Of a stretch of 64,000 nt of DNA, positions 28,798 to 55,770 are shown piece by piece. Position 1 is the first letter of the stretch; each line of letters starts with the position of its first letter. The stretch comes from Hyphomicrobiales bacterium (lineage in GTDB: Bacteria > Pseudomonadota > Alphaproteobacteria > Rhizobiales > Rhizobiaceae): NCBI GenBank assembly GCA_900471925.1, contig UCGV01000027.1:1-64000 (forward strand), in the 5' to 3' direction. The translations under genes and the position numbers were made by a program. Below the pieces are notes generated by a model that saw only the letters and a list, made by a program, of their open reading frames with translations, searched no databases and had not been told where the DNA came from.

Positions 28798-29460
28798 ATG
28801 AGCGACAACCAGATACCCGAAGACAGCAAGCTCACGACATCCAAGCGCCGCTGGGCGGCGGAAGGAAAGTTCCTGACCGGTCGCATCAGCCGCCCGGAAA
28901 CCGAACGCCTGCCGCCGGGCCAGCATCTGGTGAAGAACTGGCCCGTGCTCGATCTCGGCCAGCAGCCGGTCATCGCTATCGACAGCTGGAAGCTGGAGGT
29001 CCGAGGCCTCGTCGAGACGGAACTCAATCTCAGCTGGACAGCTTTCCAGGCGCTGGAACAGAGCGATATGGTCAGCGATATCCACTGTGTCACGACATGG
29101 TCGCGCTACGATAACAAATGGAAGGGTGTTTCAACCCGAGACCTGCTCGACCTCGCCATGCCCAAGACAGAGGCGAGCTACGTCATGCTGACAAGCTATG
29201 ACGGCTATACGACCAATCTGCCGCTTGCGGATTTCGCTGCTGAAGACGCAATCCTCGCGACTTCATGGGAGGGGCTACCGCTCACCCTCGATCACGGCGG
29301 ACCAATGCGCCTCGTCGTGCCGCACCTCTATTTCTGGAAGAGCGCCAAATGGCTGCGCCGTATCGATCTGATATCGGCGGACAAGGCCGGCTTCTGGGAA
29401 AAGAACGGCTACCATATGTATGGCGATCCGTGGCGCGAGCAGCGCTATTCGGATGACTAA
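28798..29460 (+). CDS. Sulfite-oxidase-like molybdopterin oxidoreductase
   Basis: 220-residue protein of the sulfite oxidase molybdopterin-binding fold. The Mo-ligand cysteine is in VSDIHCVTTWSRYDNKWKG, followed by SYDGYTTNLPLADF and GGPMRLVVPHLYFWKSAKWL. Unlike MsrP/YedY it has no visible Tat signal, so it is probably cytoplasmic; the substrate is unknown. Start ATG 28798 has AAGGAG upstream. It is divergent from dctB, and its 3' end overlaps the convergent hypothetical gene by 4 bases. Confidence 0.82.
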   Translation: MSDNQIPEDSKLTTSKRRWAAEGKFLTGRISRPETERLPPGQHLVKNWPVLDLGQQPVIAIDSWKLEVRGLVETELNLSWTAFQALEQSDMVSDIHCVTTWSRYDNKWKGVSTRDLLDLAMPKTEASYVMLTSYDGYTTNLPLADFAAEDAILATSWEGLPLTLDHGGPMRLVVPHLYFWKSAKWLRRIDLISADKAGFWEKNGYHMYGDPWREQRYSDD

Positions 29461-30050
29461 ACCCGAAGAAATCGCCTGCCAGCAAAGAATCCCGCAGCAA
29501 GGATCGCCGCCAATGCTGTGAACAAGGCCATGCTTGCCGGATGCAAGGGGATCTCACCCCAGCGCGGGCGCACGACATCGGCCGTATTGAACCCCTCGCC
29601 GCTGAACCGGCAGGTCACCAGCGAAAGCCCCCGCCTGACCATATCGACATCGACAGCAGAGGCGATTTCCCCTGCCGCCACGGCCTCTCGCGGCATGTCG
29701 CGCATGGCGAGCAGCACGGCCTTGGTCGCAGCAAGATAGGCATGGGCACATTCATTGAACGGGCTTTGCTCGTCCGTCACACTGCCCGGCACACGCCCCC
29801 AGAGGCAATAGGAATACTGTATCTCGGCATAGTTCAGCACACGTCGGAAAGGCTCGTTCGTATCAACAGCGCTTGCGGCCAGGTCCATGACACGGTCGCG
29901 ATAGTCGGCGATGACGGCCATTTCCCCGTGCGATATTTCAGGCACCGGCAAGCCGGCACGGCTGCCCTCTCCGCCGCCGCCATGCGCAGACGCGTTAGCT
30001 GCCAGCAGCAGGGCAAGGCCGAAACAAAGGAGATGCAAACCGTTTTTCAT
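29457..30050 (-). CDS. Exported membrane-anchored protein of unknown function in the cobalt operon
   Basis: 197 residues. The signal peptide (KNGLHLLCFGLALLLAANASA) is followed by a His/Gly stretch (HGGGGEG), a periplasmic helical domain with four conserved-looking cysteines (YSYCLW, NECAHAY, VTCRF and one in the signal peptide), and a single C-terminal membrane helix (MALFTALAAILAAGFFAGRRF). Third gene after cbtB and cbtA, 84 bases from cbtA. I do not recognise the family. Context and the His/Cys content suggest a metal-linked accessory role, which is inference. Confidence 0.6.
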   Translation of the reverse strand: MKNGLHLLCFGLALLLAANASAHGGGGEGSRAGLPVPEISHGEMAVIADYRDRVMDLAASAVDTNEPFRRVLNYAEIQYSYCLWGRVPGSVTDEQSPFNECAHAYLAATKAVLLAMRDMPREAVAAGEIASAVDVDMVRRGLSLVTCRFSGEGFNTADVVRPRWGEIPLHPASMALFTALAAILAAGFFAGRRFLRV

Positions 30051-30134: not shown

Positions 30135-30869
30135 TTATCGATAGGCCGGGCGCAGTCCGCTCTTCACGCCGAGCCGTTTCTCCGCCAGTGCGCCGAAAGC
30201 GAGACCCAATACAGACCAGAGAATTACATGCATGCCGAGCGAGGTCGTGCGGAAGCGCCACAGAACCATAGCCGAGAAATTCTCCGGCACTTCATTGATC
30301 GGCGGCAGCAGATATTCCACCAGACCGATGAAGCCGACGAAGAGGAGGCCGGCAATGATCGCTGCATTCCAGGCGCCATAATTCGCTGCCAATCGGCGGG
30401 CGACCGCGATGGCCGCGACGAGCGAAGCAATCGAAACGACGATCATCAGGAAGAACAGTTCGGTGCGCACGCCGATCGTATCCGGGTTGCCGACAGCCGG
30501 CGGATTGGCCGGATATTTGATCGCCGGCACGATGACGATGGCGACGAAAGCGGCGATCGCGATGACAGCCGAAGTGCTGCGTGCCGAAAGGCTGCTGAAA
30601 CGGCCATGCACGAAGGCAAATACCAGCGCAAACAGCCCACCGACGGCGACGCTATAGGCCATGATGCCGGTAAAGAGCCCAAGCCCCGCCTGGGTTGCGC
30701 GGCTGACGATCTCAGGTTCAGCGGCCTCGCCGGCAGCCTGCGCCGTCGCCTCTTCGAAGGCGATGGCCGCGTCGACGAGCGGCTCGCCGAAATAGCGCGC
30801 GAAAGCAAAAACCAGGATGCCAGCAATCACGCCCGCGATCATGCCGCGAAGCAGAAGATTTCCAACCAT
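30135..30869 (-). CDS. cbtA: Cobalt transporter subunit CbtA
   Basis: 244-residue inner membrane protein with five or six hydrophobic segments, starting NLLLRGMIAGVIAGILVFAFARYFGEP, the CbtA opening. It also has SRATQAGLGLFTGIMAYSVAVGGLFALVFA and the loop IKYPANPPAVGNPDTIGVRT, typical of the family. CbtA/CbtB are predicted B12-regulated cobalt importers. ATG 30869 has GGGGAG upstream. The 117 bases between cbtB and cbtA are almost entirely a rhizobial-type repeat. Confidence 0.88.
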   Translation of the reverse strand: MVGNLLLRGMIAGVIAGILVFAFARYFGEPLVDAAIAFEEATAQAAGEAAEPEIVSRATQAGLGLFTGIMAYSVAVGGLFALVFAFVHGRFSSLSARSTSAVIAIAAFVAIVIVPAIKYPANPPAVGNPDTIGVRTELFFLMIVVSIASLVAAIAVARRLAANYGAWNAAIIAGLLFVGFIGLVEYLLPPINEVPENFSAMVLWRFRTTSLGMHVILWSVLGLAFGALAEKRLGVKSGLRPAYR

Positions 30870-30882
30870 GTGAGGTACTCCC

Positions 30883-30990
30883 CTAAAGCATGTCACGCAA
30901 AGGCGCCCAGCGACCTTGCGATGACGACATGCACAAAAACAAAAATCTAGAACGTATCGAACGGATCTGAAAGATCGCGATGCGCTTTAG
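30883..30990. repeat. 108-bp palindromic intergenic repeat inside the cbt operon
   Basis: Bounded by perfect terminal inverted repeats CTAAAGC / GCTTTAG. Inside are two further hairpin arms (CATGTCACGCAA...TTGCGATGACGACATG and GATCTGAAAGATC). It resembles a repeat I know from many Rhizobium intergenic regions. Its end supplies the cbtB TAA stop codon (30987-30989). Confidence 0.7.
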
Positions 30991-31196
30991 TGGCAGGGGA
31001 AGCCGAGGAGGTGGCGGCCGTCATGCACGAATTCATGCACATACATGCCGTTGAAGAGCGCCATCGCGCCTTCTTCGGTGCCGACGAAATAGATGGCGAT
31101 CAGCATCAGCAGGCCGCCGAAGATCGCCCAGGGCAGGATGTCGCCAAGCGGAATCGGTGCGGGGGCTGCGACGGGCGCGAAAGTAGTATCAGACAT
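30987..31196 (-). CDS. cbtB: Cobalt transporter subunit CbtB
   Basis: 69-residue protein with one membrane helix (ILPWAIFGGLLMLIAIYFVGTEEG) and a conserved C-terminal His-rich end (GMYVHEFVHDGRHLLGFPCH) expected to bind cobalt; this is the classic CbtB layout. ATG 31196 follows AGGAGGAATAC on the minus strand. It is directly downstream of a cobalamin riboswitch. The final TAA lies inside the terminal inverted repeat of the adjacent repeat element. Confidence 0.93.
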   Translation of the reverse strand: MSDTTFAPVAAPAPIPLGDILPWAIFGGLLMLIAIYFVGTEEGAMALFNGMYVHEFVHDGRHLLGFPCH

Positions 31197-31234
31197 GTAT
31201 TCCTCCTGGAATGACGCGTTCAGTCGAAGATCTT

Positions 31235-31350
31235 GCGTGCGGCAGGGTCTGACTTCCAACGCGAAGAATTTCGACACGCTGGTCACAGTGGCGCGACCGC
31301 GCCGGACTTTCACCGGCTTCCAAACCCGCAACGTCACGGTTATATCTGCA
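31235..31350 (-). promoter_or_regulatory. Cobalamin (adenosylcobalamin) riboswitch
   Basis: On the minus strand GAAGCCGGTGAAAGTCCGGC, then GCGGTCGCGCCACTGTGA, and downstream GGAAGTCAGACC: the conserved core blocks of the B12 riboswitch in correct order. It ends about 40 bases before the cbtB ATG. B12 binding should shut off cobalt uptake genes, as in other alphaproteobacteria. Confidence 0.93.
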
Positions 31351-31426: not shown

Positions 31427-31972
31427 GTGACTACCCGTCTCACATGGATCTGCCACGGCGCGACAGCAGCCAATCGCACCGCCTCCTTTCCGGTCGATGA
31501 ACCATTGGAAGAAAAGGCGCTGGGCGAGGCCGCAAGACCGGCACCCGGACGTGCGGACAGGGTTTTCACCAGCCCGGCTCTGCGCGCCCGGCAGACTGCC
31601 GAAATGCTCGGCTTCGACGCGACCCTTGCCCCCTCGCTCAGGGACTGCGACTACGGACGATGGGCCGGCAGGCCGCTCATGAACCTTCACGCCGAAGAAC
31701 CAGAAAATCTGGCGCTCTGGATGACCGATCCGGAGGCAACCCCACACGAGGGAGAAAGCCAGCAACAGCTTTGCAGGCGCATATCCGGCTGGATGAACGA
31801 GGAAATGCCGCTCGGCGGCCACATAGTCGCCGTGACCCATGCCGCCGTGATCCGTGCAGCGATAACGGATGTCCTGAAAGCGCCACCCGCTTCTTTCTGG
31901 ACCATCGACGTCCAGCCGCTCGGCATGGTGCGCATGACGCATGACGGCCGCCGCTGGTCGCTGCGTTTCTGA
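31427..31972 (+). CDS. Histidine phosphatase family protein with altered RHG motif
   Basis: 181-residue member of the phosphoglycerate mutase-like superfamily. The N-terminal motif reads TWICHGATAANR where RHG is usual, so the catalytic His stays but the phosphate-binding Arg is Cys (codon TGC, one transition from CGC). Other core residues are present: SPALRARQTAEML, the DYGRWAG segment and the second His in VAVTHAAVIRA. Start GTG 31427 has GCAAGGCG upstream. Divergent from the cobalt operon, so an alpha-ribazole phosphatase (CobC)-like role in B12 synthesis is possible. Confidence 0.78.
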   Translation: MTTRLTWICHGATAANRTASFPVDEPLEEKALGEAARPAPGRADRVFTSPALRARQTAEMLGFDATLAPSLRDCDYGRWAGRPLMNLHAEEPENLALWMTDPEATPHEGESQQQLCRRISGWMNEEMPLGGHIVAVTHAAVIRAAITDVLKAPPASFWTIDVQPLGMVRMTHDGRRWSLRF

Positions 31973-45111: not shown

Positions 45112-45188
45112 TGGTAGCGGGGGGCGGAATTGAACCGCCGACCTCAGGGTTATGAATCCTGCGCTCTCACCAACTGAGCTACCCAGCC
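45112..45188 (-). tRNA. tRNA-Met (CAT), elongator type
   Basis: 77 bases with encoded CCA. D stem GCTC/GAGC, anticodon loop TTCATAA, T arm GGCGG-TTCAATT-CCGCC. G1 and absence of the GGG/CCC anticodon stem argue against initiator tRNA. Two oddities: T4 faces C69 in the acceptor stem and A31 faces C39 in the anticodon stem. Confidence 0.92.
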
Positions 45189-54537: not shown

Positions 54538-55716
54538 TCAGGCAGCGGCCTGGGAAAGCGCAGCCTTCTGCGTTTCGAAGGCCCAGGACAGCCAAGGCAT
54601 CAGCTTCTGCATGTCGGAAGTTTCAATCGTGGCACCCGCCCAGATGCGCAGTCCCGACGGAGCGTCGCGGTAAGCGCCGATGTCATAGGCGACGCCTTCC
54701 TTCTCGAGGAGAGCGACGAGACCCTTGGCGAAGTTCGCCTGGCCATCGGCATCGAGAGCAGCAATGTCCTTGTCCACGATCTTCAGGCAGATCGAGGTGT
54801 TGGATTCGATCTCCGGCTTGACGGCGAGGTTGGCGATCCACTCGTTGGCGTCAACGAAATCGGCAACCGTCTTGGCATTGGCGTCGGCGCGGGCGATCAG
54901 GCCCTTGAGACCGCCGAGTTGCTTGGCCCAGAGAAGCGCATCGATATAGTCTTCGACGCAAAGCATCGAAGGCGTGTTGATCGTCTCACCCTGGAAGATG
55001 CCTTCGATCAGCTTGCCGCCCGAGGTCAGGCGGAAGATCTTCGGCAACGGCCATGCCGGCTGGTAGGAAACCAGACGCTCGGCAGCACGTGGCGACAGGA
55101 TGAGAATGCCATGCGCACCCTCGCCGCCGAGAACCTTCTGCCAGGAGAAGGTGACGACATCGAGCTTGGCGAAATCGAGGTTCTGCGCGAAAGCGGCAGA
55201 CGTCGCATCGCAGATCGTCAGGCCCTTTCGATCGGCCGGAATGAAATCGGCGTTGGGAACGCGTACACCCGAGGTCGTGCCGTTCCAGGTGAAGACCACG
55301 TCACGGTCGAAATCGACGGTGGAAAGGTCCGGAAGTTCGCCGTAACCGGCTTCGATCTTGCGAACGTCCTTCAGCTTCAGCTGCTTCACGACGTCAGTGA
55401 CCCAGCCGGCACCGAAGCTTTCCCAGGCGACCATATCGACGCCGCGCTCACCGAGCAGCGACCAGAGCGCCATCTCGACGGCGCCGGTGTCGGAAGCCGG
55501 TACGATGCCGATGCGATAGTCCGCAGGCACTTCCAGAATTTCCCGGGTGAGATCGATCGCCTGCTTCAGCTTGGTCTTGCCGACTTTCGCACGGTGCGAA
55601 CGGCCGAGAGCCGCATCGGAAAGAGCTTCGAGCGTCCAACCAGGACGTTTCGCGCAGGGGCCAGAAGAAAAATGAGTGTTTTGCGGACGCACGTCCGGCT
55701 TTGCGGTATTTGCCAT
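54538..55716 (-). CDS. serC: Phosphoserine aminotransferase
   Basis: 392 residues. Transaminates phosphohydroxypyruvate with glutamate in serine synthesis. The PLP lysine lies in [23 protein letters not shown]; other marks are [14 protein letters not shown] at the start, [20 protein letters not shown], and [17 protein letters not shown]. It is of the alphaproteobacterial/Methanosarcina-like branch (about 390 residues). ATG 55716 follows GGAAGGG. A structured leader lies directly upstream, and serA follows in the same operon. Confidence 0.94.
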
Positions 55717-55717
55717 A

Positions 55718-55770
55718 TTGCTACCCTTCCAGATAGATGGCTCCTCGTTGGGGAGGAGTGTCCCGCCGCC
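55718..55770 (-). ncRNA. serC-type leader RNA (candidate)
   Basis: On the minus strand, hairpin CTCCTC-CCCAAC-GAGGAG (55758-55741) is followed by the ribosome binding site GGAAGGG just before the serC start. The loop CCC could pair with GGG of the ribosome binding site. Position and shape fit the serC RNA motif reported upstream of serC in Rhizobiales. Confidence 0.6.

Follow-up and report, generated by a model that had tools for sequence, protein, structure and literature searches.

An apparently undescribed exported protein encoded beside the predicted cobalt importer CbtAB, a candidate periplasmic cobalt accessory

The cbtB-cbtA-X locus and its riboswitch

We analysed a window of 64,000 nucleotides (positions 1 to 64,000 of contig UCGV01000027.1, assembly GCA_900471925.1) from a bacterium of the family Rhizobiaceae. 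Three genes follow each other on its minus strand: cbtB (30987..31196; PF09489, 37.8 bits, E = 2.1e-9), cbtA (30135..30869, with an alternative GTG start at 30896; PF09490, about 237.7-237.8 bits, E = 2.1e-70) and a gene called X hereafter (29457..30050), which starts with an ATG at 30050 and encodes a protein of 197 aa from an undescribed family, with signals for export and for a C-terminal anchor. The tandem CbtA and CbtB both score above the Pfam cut-offs, and both are far under the NCBIfam TIGR02458/TIGR02459 cut-offs. CbtA and CbtB together make up a predicted cobalt transporter (PF09490, PF09489), reportedly first proposed by Rodionov and colleagues, with a B12 riboswitch and a conserved histidine motif in CbtB; X, its direct neighbour, is neither CbtA nor CbtB.

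An AdoCbl (B12) riboswitch aptamer (RF01482) lies upstream of cbtB (31187-31348, minus strand). Its score of 43.8 bits (E = 1.1e-6) is under the Rfam gathering score of 50, which is why a default scan misses it. From this riboswitch and 13 related loci (14 sequences) we built a model, which gives the window riboswitch 133.9 bits (by construction, as it is a training member). Among the 150 out of 2579 first-look candidates scored in the window genome, it was the only match of this model at E <= 0.1. A simple scan revealed no terminator-like site on the coding strand between cbtA and X, and the simple scan found no promoter-like site at all. The original prediction, made from this DNA alone, placed X behind cbtB-cbtA on the same strand and under a cobalamin riboswitch. 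Both statements agree with the Pfam-supported genes, all on the minus strand, and with the RF01482 match, albeit below the gathering score. From its sequence context, X is a probable operon partner of cbtB-cbtA.

The divergent gene HisP (31427..31972, plus strand), encoding a histidine phosphatase, is a recurrent companion of class I cbtAB (defined below). A HisP match is found within 3 kb of CbtA in 92 out of 97 CbtA loci, and HisP adjoins X, downstream and on the same strand, in the three loci (3/3) that carry nitrile hydratase genes. These two associations suggest that HisP may work in cobalt uptake and not in alpha-ribazole chemistry; it scores 84.7 against the CobC alpha-ribazole phosphatase equivalog TIGR03162 (cut-off 162.9). 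In keeping with aerobic B12 synthesis, the window genome also encodes a CobN/Mg-chelatase-family protein (1290.8 bits). One protein of the NicO family was found as well.

Other elements were observed in the window. A 113-bp interspersed repeat separates cbtB from cbtA (30876-30988); at E <= 1e-5 it is matched 13 times across the genome, itself included, with 70-100% identity, and it has a sub-threshold likeness to the Brucella sRNA CI27 (15.5 bits). The locus L005 is without this repeat, and its cbtA starts about 16 bp past the end of the cbtB match. The cbtB-cbtA spacer showed no unusual stability in a shuffle test (z = -0.74). A serC leader RNA (55716-55768, 68.9 bits) and a tRNA (45115-45188) were also detected, both on the minus strand.

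The X protein and its conserved residues

The coding gene at 29457-30050 on the minus strand is real. Over its 197 codons, X differs from its homologue in L002 at 15, 8 and 68 first, second and third codon positions, respectively, and from that in L005 at 23, 15 and 73; against seven homologues, substitutions are mostly in third positions, as for a frame under selection at the protein level. At their stop codons, X and a convergent molybdopterin oxidoreductase gene (plus strand, ending at 29460) share four bases (29457-29460).

The predicted signal peptide (residues 1-22; 29985..30050, minus strand), recognized by motif and hydrophobicity, is a hydrophobic stretch that ends in A-S-A and is followed by a histidine, so that cleavage is predicted before H23. 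In 84 of the 88 aligned copies (out of 92 rows) that were chosen for having the A-H pair, position -3 is A, V, S, T, G, I or L. At the other end, a membrane helix (residues 171-194; 29469..29540, minus strand) is predicted by AF2 and by hydropathy, the hydropathy cut being passed by 85/92 copies and the tail being net positive in 86/92. The signal peptide and the C-terminal anchor of the original prediction are thus both borne out at the level of sequence, as are its several cysteines: X has four, one within the signal peptide and three in the mature part, all three conserved. The His/Gly stretch announced after the cleavage site does exist in the window copy (HGGGGEG). Only its first histidine is conserved, and the Gly-rich part varies.

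Six residues of X stand out in the 92-row alignment, which takes in two degenerate copies: His23, the predicted mature residue 1 (29982..29984; 90/92), His41 at the start of helix 1 (29928..29930; 90/92), Cys82 just past helix 2 (29805..29807; 92/92), Cys101, within SPFNECAHAYL at the start of helix 3 (29748..29750; 92/92), His103, also at the start of helix 3 (29742..29744; 92/92), and Cys147 past helix 4 (29610..29612; 91/92, with one gap), all on the minus strand. This His/Cys set is kept in every genomic context compared. Conservation is inflated among the X loci from the contig scan, which were fetched by peptide patterns containing C82, C101 or H103; the copies from the order-sample profile search and from the plasmid tblastn were not selected in this way. 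The two degenerate copies (L071 and L077) are split across frames, and intact copies were found elsewhere.

The AF2 model of X (42-row alignment; mean pLDDT 89.4, pTM 0.81) comprises helices at residues 41-60, 66-81, 99-117 and 123-140, followed by the membrane helix. The folded domain is therefore predicted to be made of four helices, presumably a bundle. Because of the order of the helices, H41, C82, C101/H103 and C147 should share one end of this modelled up-down bundle, the end leading to the membrane helix. Residues 21-29 form one poorly modelled stretch (pLDDT < 50), and since H23 falls inside it, placing H23 near the other conserved residues is a guess.

The three conserved cysteines could be structural. 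They are among the most strictly kept residues of X (92, 92 and 91 of 92), and in CbtB, where H54, E55, H58, D59, H62, C68 and H69 are invariant in 98/98 aligned copies, the C-terminal Cys-His pair is just as constant. This would fit X being an assembly or thiol-redox factor whose three cysteines keep the CbtB C-terminal Cys-His or the CbtAB complex working, with no metal carried. We consider such a role rather unlikely: the conserved H23, H41 and H103 would be needless for it, X has no CXXC motif, and 160 out of the 186 CbtA genomes of our order sample are without X. On the side of CbtA, no histidine or cysteine is invariant among 22 class I sequences, and a structural model of CbtA (pLDDT 85.5) has no PDB match at E <= 0.001.

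No known family was recovered for X: there was no Pfam or NCBIfam match at E <= 1, no PHROGs match at E <= 0.1, no phage match, nothing in the PDB at E <= 1 with a sequence profile, and nothing in the PDB or BFVD at E <= 0.001 with Foldseek on the model. Thus, no family or fold match from these searches backs metal binding. Scanning 35 X homologues against Pfam at E <= 0.1 gave matches to six families (DUF4187 in three homologues; DUF6278, FGGY_C, CinA_KH and two TetR_C models in one each), inconsistent and with a best E of 0.0066, that we rejected as chance matches. The best VIA-align row, SCIN-B (Z = 5.3), was likewise taken as common helical packing. As neither these family searches nor a search of the open-licence literature yielded a description, X is apparently an undescribed component of a known predicted importer.

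CnrX and NccX, periplasmic Co/Ni sensors, are membrane-tethered helical proteins of the periplasm, as X is predicted to be. CnrX, whose Co- and Ni-bound structures have been solved according to the PDB entry titles, is among the structural rows found for X (2y39 and 2y3b; Z = 4.0 and 3.9, rmsd 4.0 and 4.2, over 83 and 88 residues). X might then be a periplasmic sensor or gate that throttles CbtAB at high cobalt, with a role like that of CnrX-type sensors, and the predicted all-helical, tethered architecture would suit it. A methanotroph was described to grow better when cbtB was repressed or cobalt lowered, a gain ascribed to cobalt toxicity in the part of the report considered here (PMC13108547). 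However, Z values of about 4 are at the level that VIA-align calls common for helical bundles, and X is encoded as part of the unit of the importer itself, under a B12 riboswitch, which makes a sensor quite unlikely.

Linkage and co-occurrence with class I CbtA

We then compared the neighbourhoods of X and CbtA. The X loci include 71 from a contig scan by peptide patterns, and 16 plasmid records were matched by tblastn, five of which were fetched. The contig scan reaches close relatives only, and the profile searches score few candidates per genome, so that distant relatives may exist elsewhere. The linkage count covers 108 out of 135 loci (L001 and L078-L103, duplicates or short, were left out), some genomes contributing two loci. 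Among these 108 loci, X was found in 91 and CbtA in 97. CbtA lies within 4 kb of X in 80 of the 91 X loci, always on the same strand (80/80), although many loci are close kin and 49 of the 80 linked ones come from Rhizobium or near relatives (L002-L048, L050, L051). X is downstream of CbtA in 79 of these 80 loci and upstream in one (L075); the gap between the match ends is 16-138 bp in 70 of them.

CbtA is absent from the vicinity of X in 11 loci (L059, L062, L064, L067, L071, L077 and L104-L108). Searching the genome or record revealed a class I CbtA elsewhere for L059, L071 and L077, and all five genomes of L104-L108 (G468, G501, G578, G530 and G748) also have one elsewhere. In the metagenome-assembled genomes (MAGs) of L062 and L064, the only CbtA found with X belongs to class II. 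For L067, a MAG with a contig that begins within HisP, the genome or record search found no CbtA.

The distinction between classes comes from the order sample, in which X is present in 26 and CbtA in 186 of 397 genomes. PF09490 scores are bimodal there: 37 matches in 36 genomes reach 228.6-269.2 bits, the next one being 178.1, and this high-scoring group is what we call class I. With its 237.7 bits, the CbtA of the window is of class I as well. All 26 X genomes are within the 36 class I genomes (hypergeometric P = 6e-33; with the comparison restricted to the 186 CbtA genomes, 6e-24; kinship being ignored). Six genera contain both classes. X occurs in 6/7 class I vs. 0/6 class II genomes of genus g316, 2/2 vs. 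0/6 in g278, 2/2 vs. 0/9 in g341 and 1/1 vs. 0/2 in g287; it is absent from both classes in g302 (0/1 vs. 0/1) and g313 (0/1 vs. 0/3). X and class I CbtA are adjacent in 20 of the 26 genomes and apart in six (G468, G501, G530, G578, G547 and G748), four of which belong to one genus (g330).

The original prediction proposed looking for homologues beside cbtAB in many genomes, and these were found in 80 of 91 X loci. The outcome that it named as refuting, homologues never near cobalt or B12 genes, is clearly contradicted by this count and by the 26/26 genomes. A shared chromosomal neighbourhood, of which X would be a passenger with no cobalt role, is a very improbable explanation. A block HK-MPT-X-CbtA-CbtB-HisP is indeed common to most Rhizobium loci, but in other genera CbtB-CbtA-X is kept between different flanking genes, the linkage is also seen on plasmids and in different gene orders, and X co-occurs with class I CbtA even where the two are unlinked (6/26 genomes).

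X was absent from 10 of the 36 class I genomes of the order sample. The class sample (385 genomes) contains X only in the window's own genome vs. CbtA in 87; six of its genomes have a CbtA above 235 bits (next 188.8), and X is absent from five of these six. In the phylum sample (398 genomes), X was found in six, all in the window's own family. Since 10/36 and 5/6 class I-like genomes of these two samples do without it, X is, on this sequence survey, an accessory, and CbtAB can do without X. The claim that X completes the importer is therefore not supported, given 26 vs. 186 genomes out of 397, and 1 vs. 87 out of 385. The broader idea of a periplasmic cobalt component fares better, in that X is a linked partner with an export signal, an anchor and a His/Cys set.

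Cobalt and copper contexts

A riboswitch model, R1, was applied to 69 of our 135 loci, of which 58 had CbtA. A riboswitch was detected upstream of cbtB in 50 of these 58 CbtAB loci, 12 of the 50 being training sequences; since the R1 alignment extends into the first part of cbtB, the placement of the matches there is in part built into the model. Two further R1 rows, both weak, were left uncounted (L131 at 8728, 15.8 bits; L071 at 3284, 15.2 bits). A strict riboswitch pattern that preceded R1 matched 60 out of 97 loci. Independently of R1, Rfam at its gathering score detected seven cobalamin/AdoCbl aptamers in 14 loci tested, six of which (6/14) lie just upstream of cbtB and the seventh elsewhere (L057, 1498-1685). 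According to part of a review, coenzyme B12 represses cbtBA 43-fold (PMC8123684).

With R1, no riboswitch was found in eight of the 58 CbtAB loci (L074, L075, L116, L125, L126 and L132-L134). In L132-L134, from three genomes of one genus (g316), the genes for nitrile hydratase beta, alpha, an accessory protein and a small membrane protein are followed on one strand by CbtB, CbtA, X and HisP. Domains were checked on L133, where the alpha subunit scores 283.6 bits against TIGR01323 (cut-off 249.85). The alpha subunits of L132 and L133 contain CTLCSC, which we counted as the Co-type motif core, followed by W instead of Y; the Co-type motif is given as CTLCSCY in the relevant part of a published account (PMC2667541). 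In L075 and L126, CbtAB accompanies a urea/amide-type binding protein, an ANTAR regulator and a CobW-family GTPase (domains checked on L126, CobW on L121). L116 and L125 have CbtAB without X nearby.

The cbtB-cbtA-X unit is thus under a B12 riboswitch in loci where the cobalt probably ends up in B12, and it apparently escapes this control where a non-corrin cobalt enzyme is present. Because the same trio occurs either with a riboswitch or with nitrile hydratase, cobalt rather than B12 would be the substrate of CbtAB-X, this split in regulation being the best available argument. The original prediction foresaw the riboswitch, and neither the nitrile hydratase contexts without riboswitch nor the copper gene contexts described below.

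Three further associations were noted around these loci. A small conserved protein (k46), a CobW-type GTPase and proteins that are named tubulin-like in L075 recur with CbtAB in L075, L116 and L126, a cluster that is perhaps an unknown cobalt-dependent system. A family with a Cys-rich N-terminal part, which we take to be DUF1289-like, is repeatedly found in the vicinity of class I cbtAB, whether X is there or not (L111-L113, L075, L076); its member in L113 had no NCBIfam match. In L127, two related genes lie beside X-CbtA-CbtB; the one that was scanned belongs to the amino-acid-kinase family, and the pair presumably resembles molybdenum storage protein.

Nine loci (L049, L052, L053, L054, L056, L073, L106, L107 and L128) have CopC/CopD genes no more than 6 kb from X. 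Two of them, L106 and L107, have no CbtAB nearby, and their genes run CopC-CopD-X along a single strand. The copper genes of L106 were checked by Pfam and NCBIfam (CopC: PF04234, 94.9 bits), and those of L073 are annotated copC/pcoD. PepSY_TM neighbours were also found in L071, L105-L107 and L128. The CopC-CopD-X loci argue more strongly than any other evidence against X being concerned with cobalt alone, and X, or a branch of X, may serve CopD. They also favour, together with the PepSY_TM neighbours, a protein that mainly handles copper as a CopC-like partner of CopD, its place beside CbtAB being historical or serving to protect the cobalt site from copper. That reading is unlikely, as the CopC-CopD-X order was seen in two genomes of one genus (g330), both of which (G578 and G530) have a class I CbtA elsewhere. 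Moreover, the riboswitch and nitrile hydratase contexts point to cobalt, and CbtA is beside X in 80 of 91 loci.

CopC and CopD are in other respects a useful parallel, the two pairs having by analogy the same design, a periplasmic partner of a membrane metal transporter. The mature N-terminal histidine predicted for X from the A|H pair is a CopC-like feature, CopC presumably having one too. CopC is a beta-sandwich, in contrast with the all-helical model of X, and PF04234 matched neither X nor its homologues.

A candidate cobalt-capture accessory

We give about an even chance to X being a tethered periplasmic accessory of class I CbtAB that captures Co(II) and hands it off. X would be exported and cleaved, leaving the conserved His23 as residue 1, and its four-helix domain would be held at the inner membrane by the C-terminal helix. 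The His/Cys set (His1 = H23, H41, C82, C101, H103 and C147) would bind Co(II) in the periplasm, and X would pass the metal to the His-rich CbtB tail for import through CbtA. In the window, low coenzyme B12 would be expected to switch on the cbtB-cbtA-X unit, which other genomes have beside nitrile hydratase. The linkage (80/91), the co-occurrence with class I CbtA (26/26) and the conservation of the His/Cys set (90-92/92) argue for a capture role. Against it stand the class I genomes without X, the two MAGs (L062 and L064), the CopC-CopD-X loci and the fact that the nitrile hydratase cases come from one genus. Background on the importer is also partly contrary, CbtAB overexpression having given no growth benefit in cobalt-limited Methylobacterium in the portion of that study considered here (PMC2773004).

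Accessories of this kind are known for other importers. NikK, a periplasmic or extracytoplasmic protein present in only some variants of a metal importer, is comparable to what is predicted for X. It serves a different transporter, and X and its homologues match no Pfam/NCBIfam family beyond the chance matches given above, while these libraries presumably hold a model covering NikK. The excerpts consulted describe NikK as an accessory of NikKMLQO nickel/cobalt transporters, in some variants only and also with orphan copies (PMC2667541, PMC2868824). CbiN of CbiMNQO, described in part of another account as a small accessory that acts on the periplasmic side of a cobalt importer (PMC7689651), is similar by analogy. 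Unlike X, with its signal peptide, folded domain of about 130 residues and single C-terminal membrane helix, CbiN has two membrane helices and a short loop. X does not belong to the CbiN family: it had no Pfam match at E <= 1, and CbiN was not among the six families matched by the 35 homologues at E <= 0.1. In the sections consulted, accounts of CbtAB deal with CbtA and CbtB only and mention no third component (PMC2667541, PMC2773004, PMC12279742).

More tentatively, and with some doubt, X could found a new family of membrane-tethered four-helix metallochaperones with an N-terminal histidine. Together with CbtB, CbtA and HisP, it would form a self-contained cassette for cobalt supply, independent of B12, which different regulons (B12, nitrile hydratase or amide-sensing) have taken up, one branch of the family serving CopD.

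In soil bacteria, X is thus a small exported protein, so far apparently undescribed, whose gene mostly adjoins those of a poorly studied cobalt importer; the function of CbtAB in Brucella is experimentally unverified according to the part of a 2025 review considered here (PMC12279742). If one subclass of CbtA has a periplasmic partner of its own, this would provide a handle on how cobalt is selected and moved. The presence of such a partner both behind B12 riboswitches and beside nitrile hydratase would separate the cobalt role of the importer from B12, and X might help the maturation of cobalt-type nitrile hydratase.
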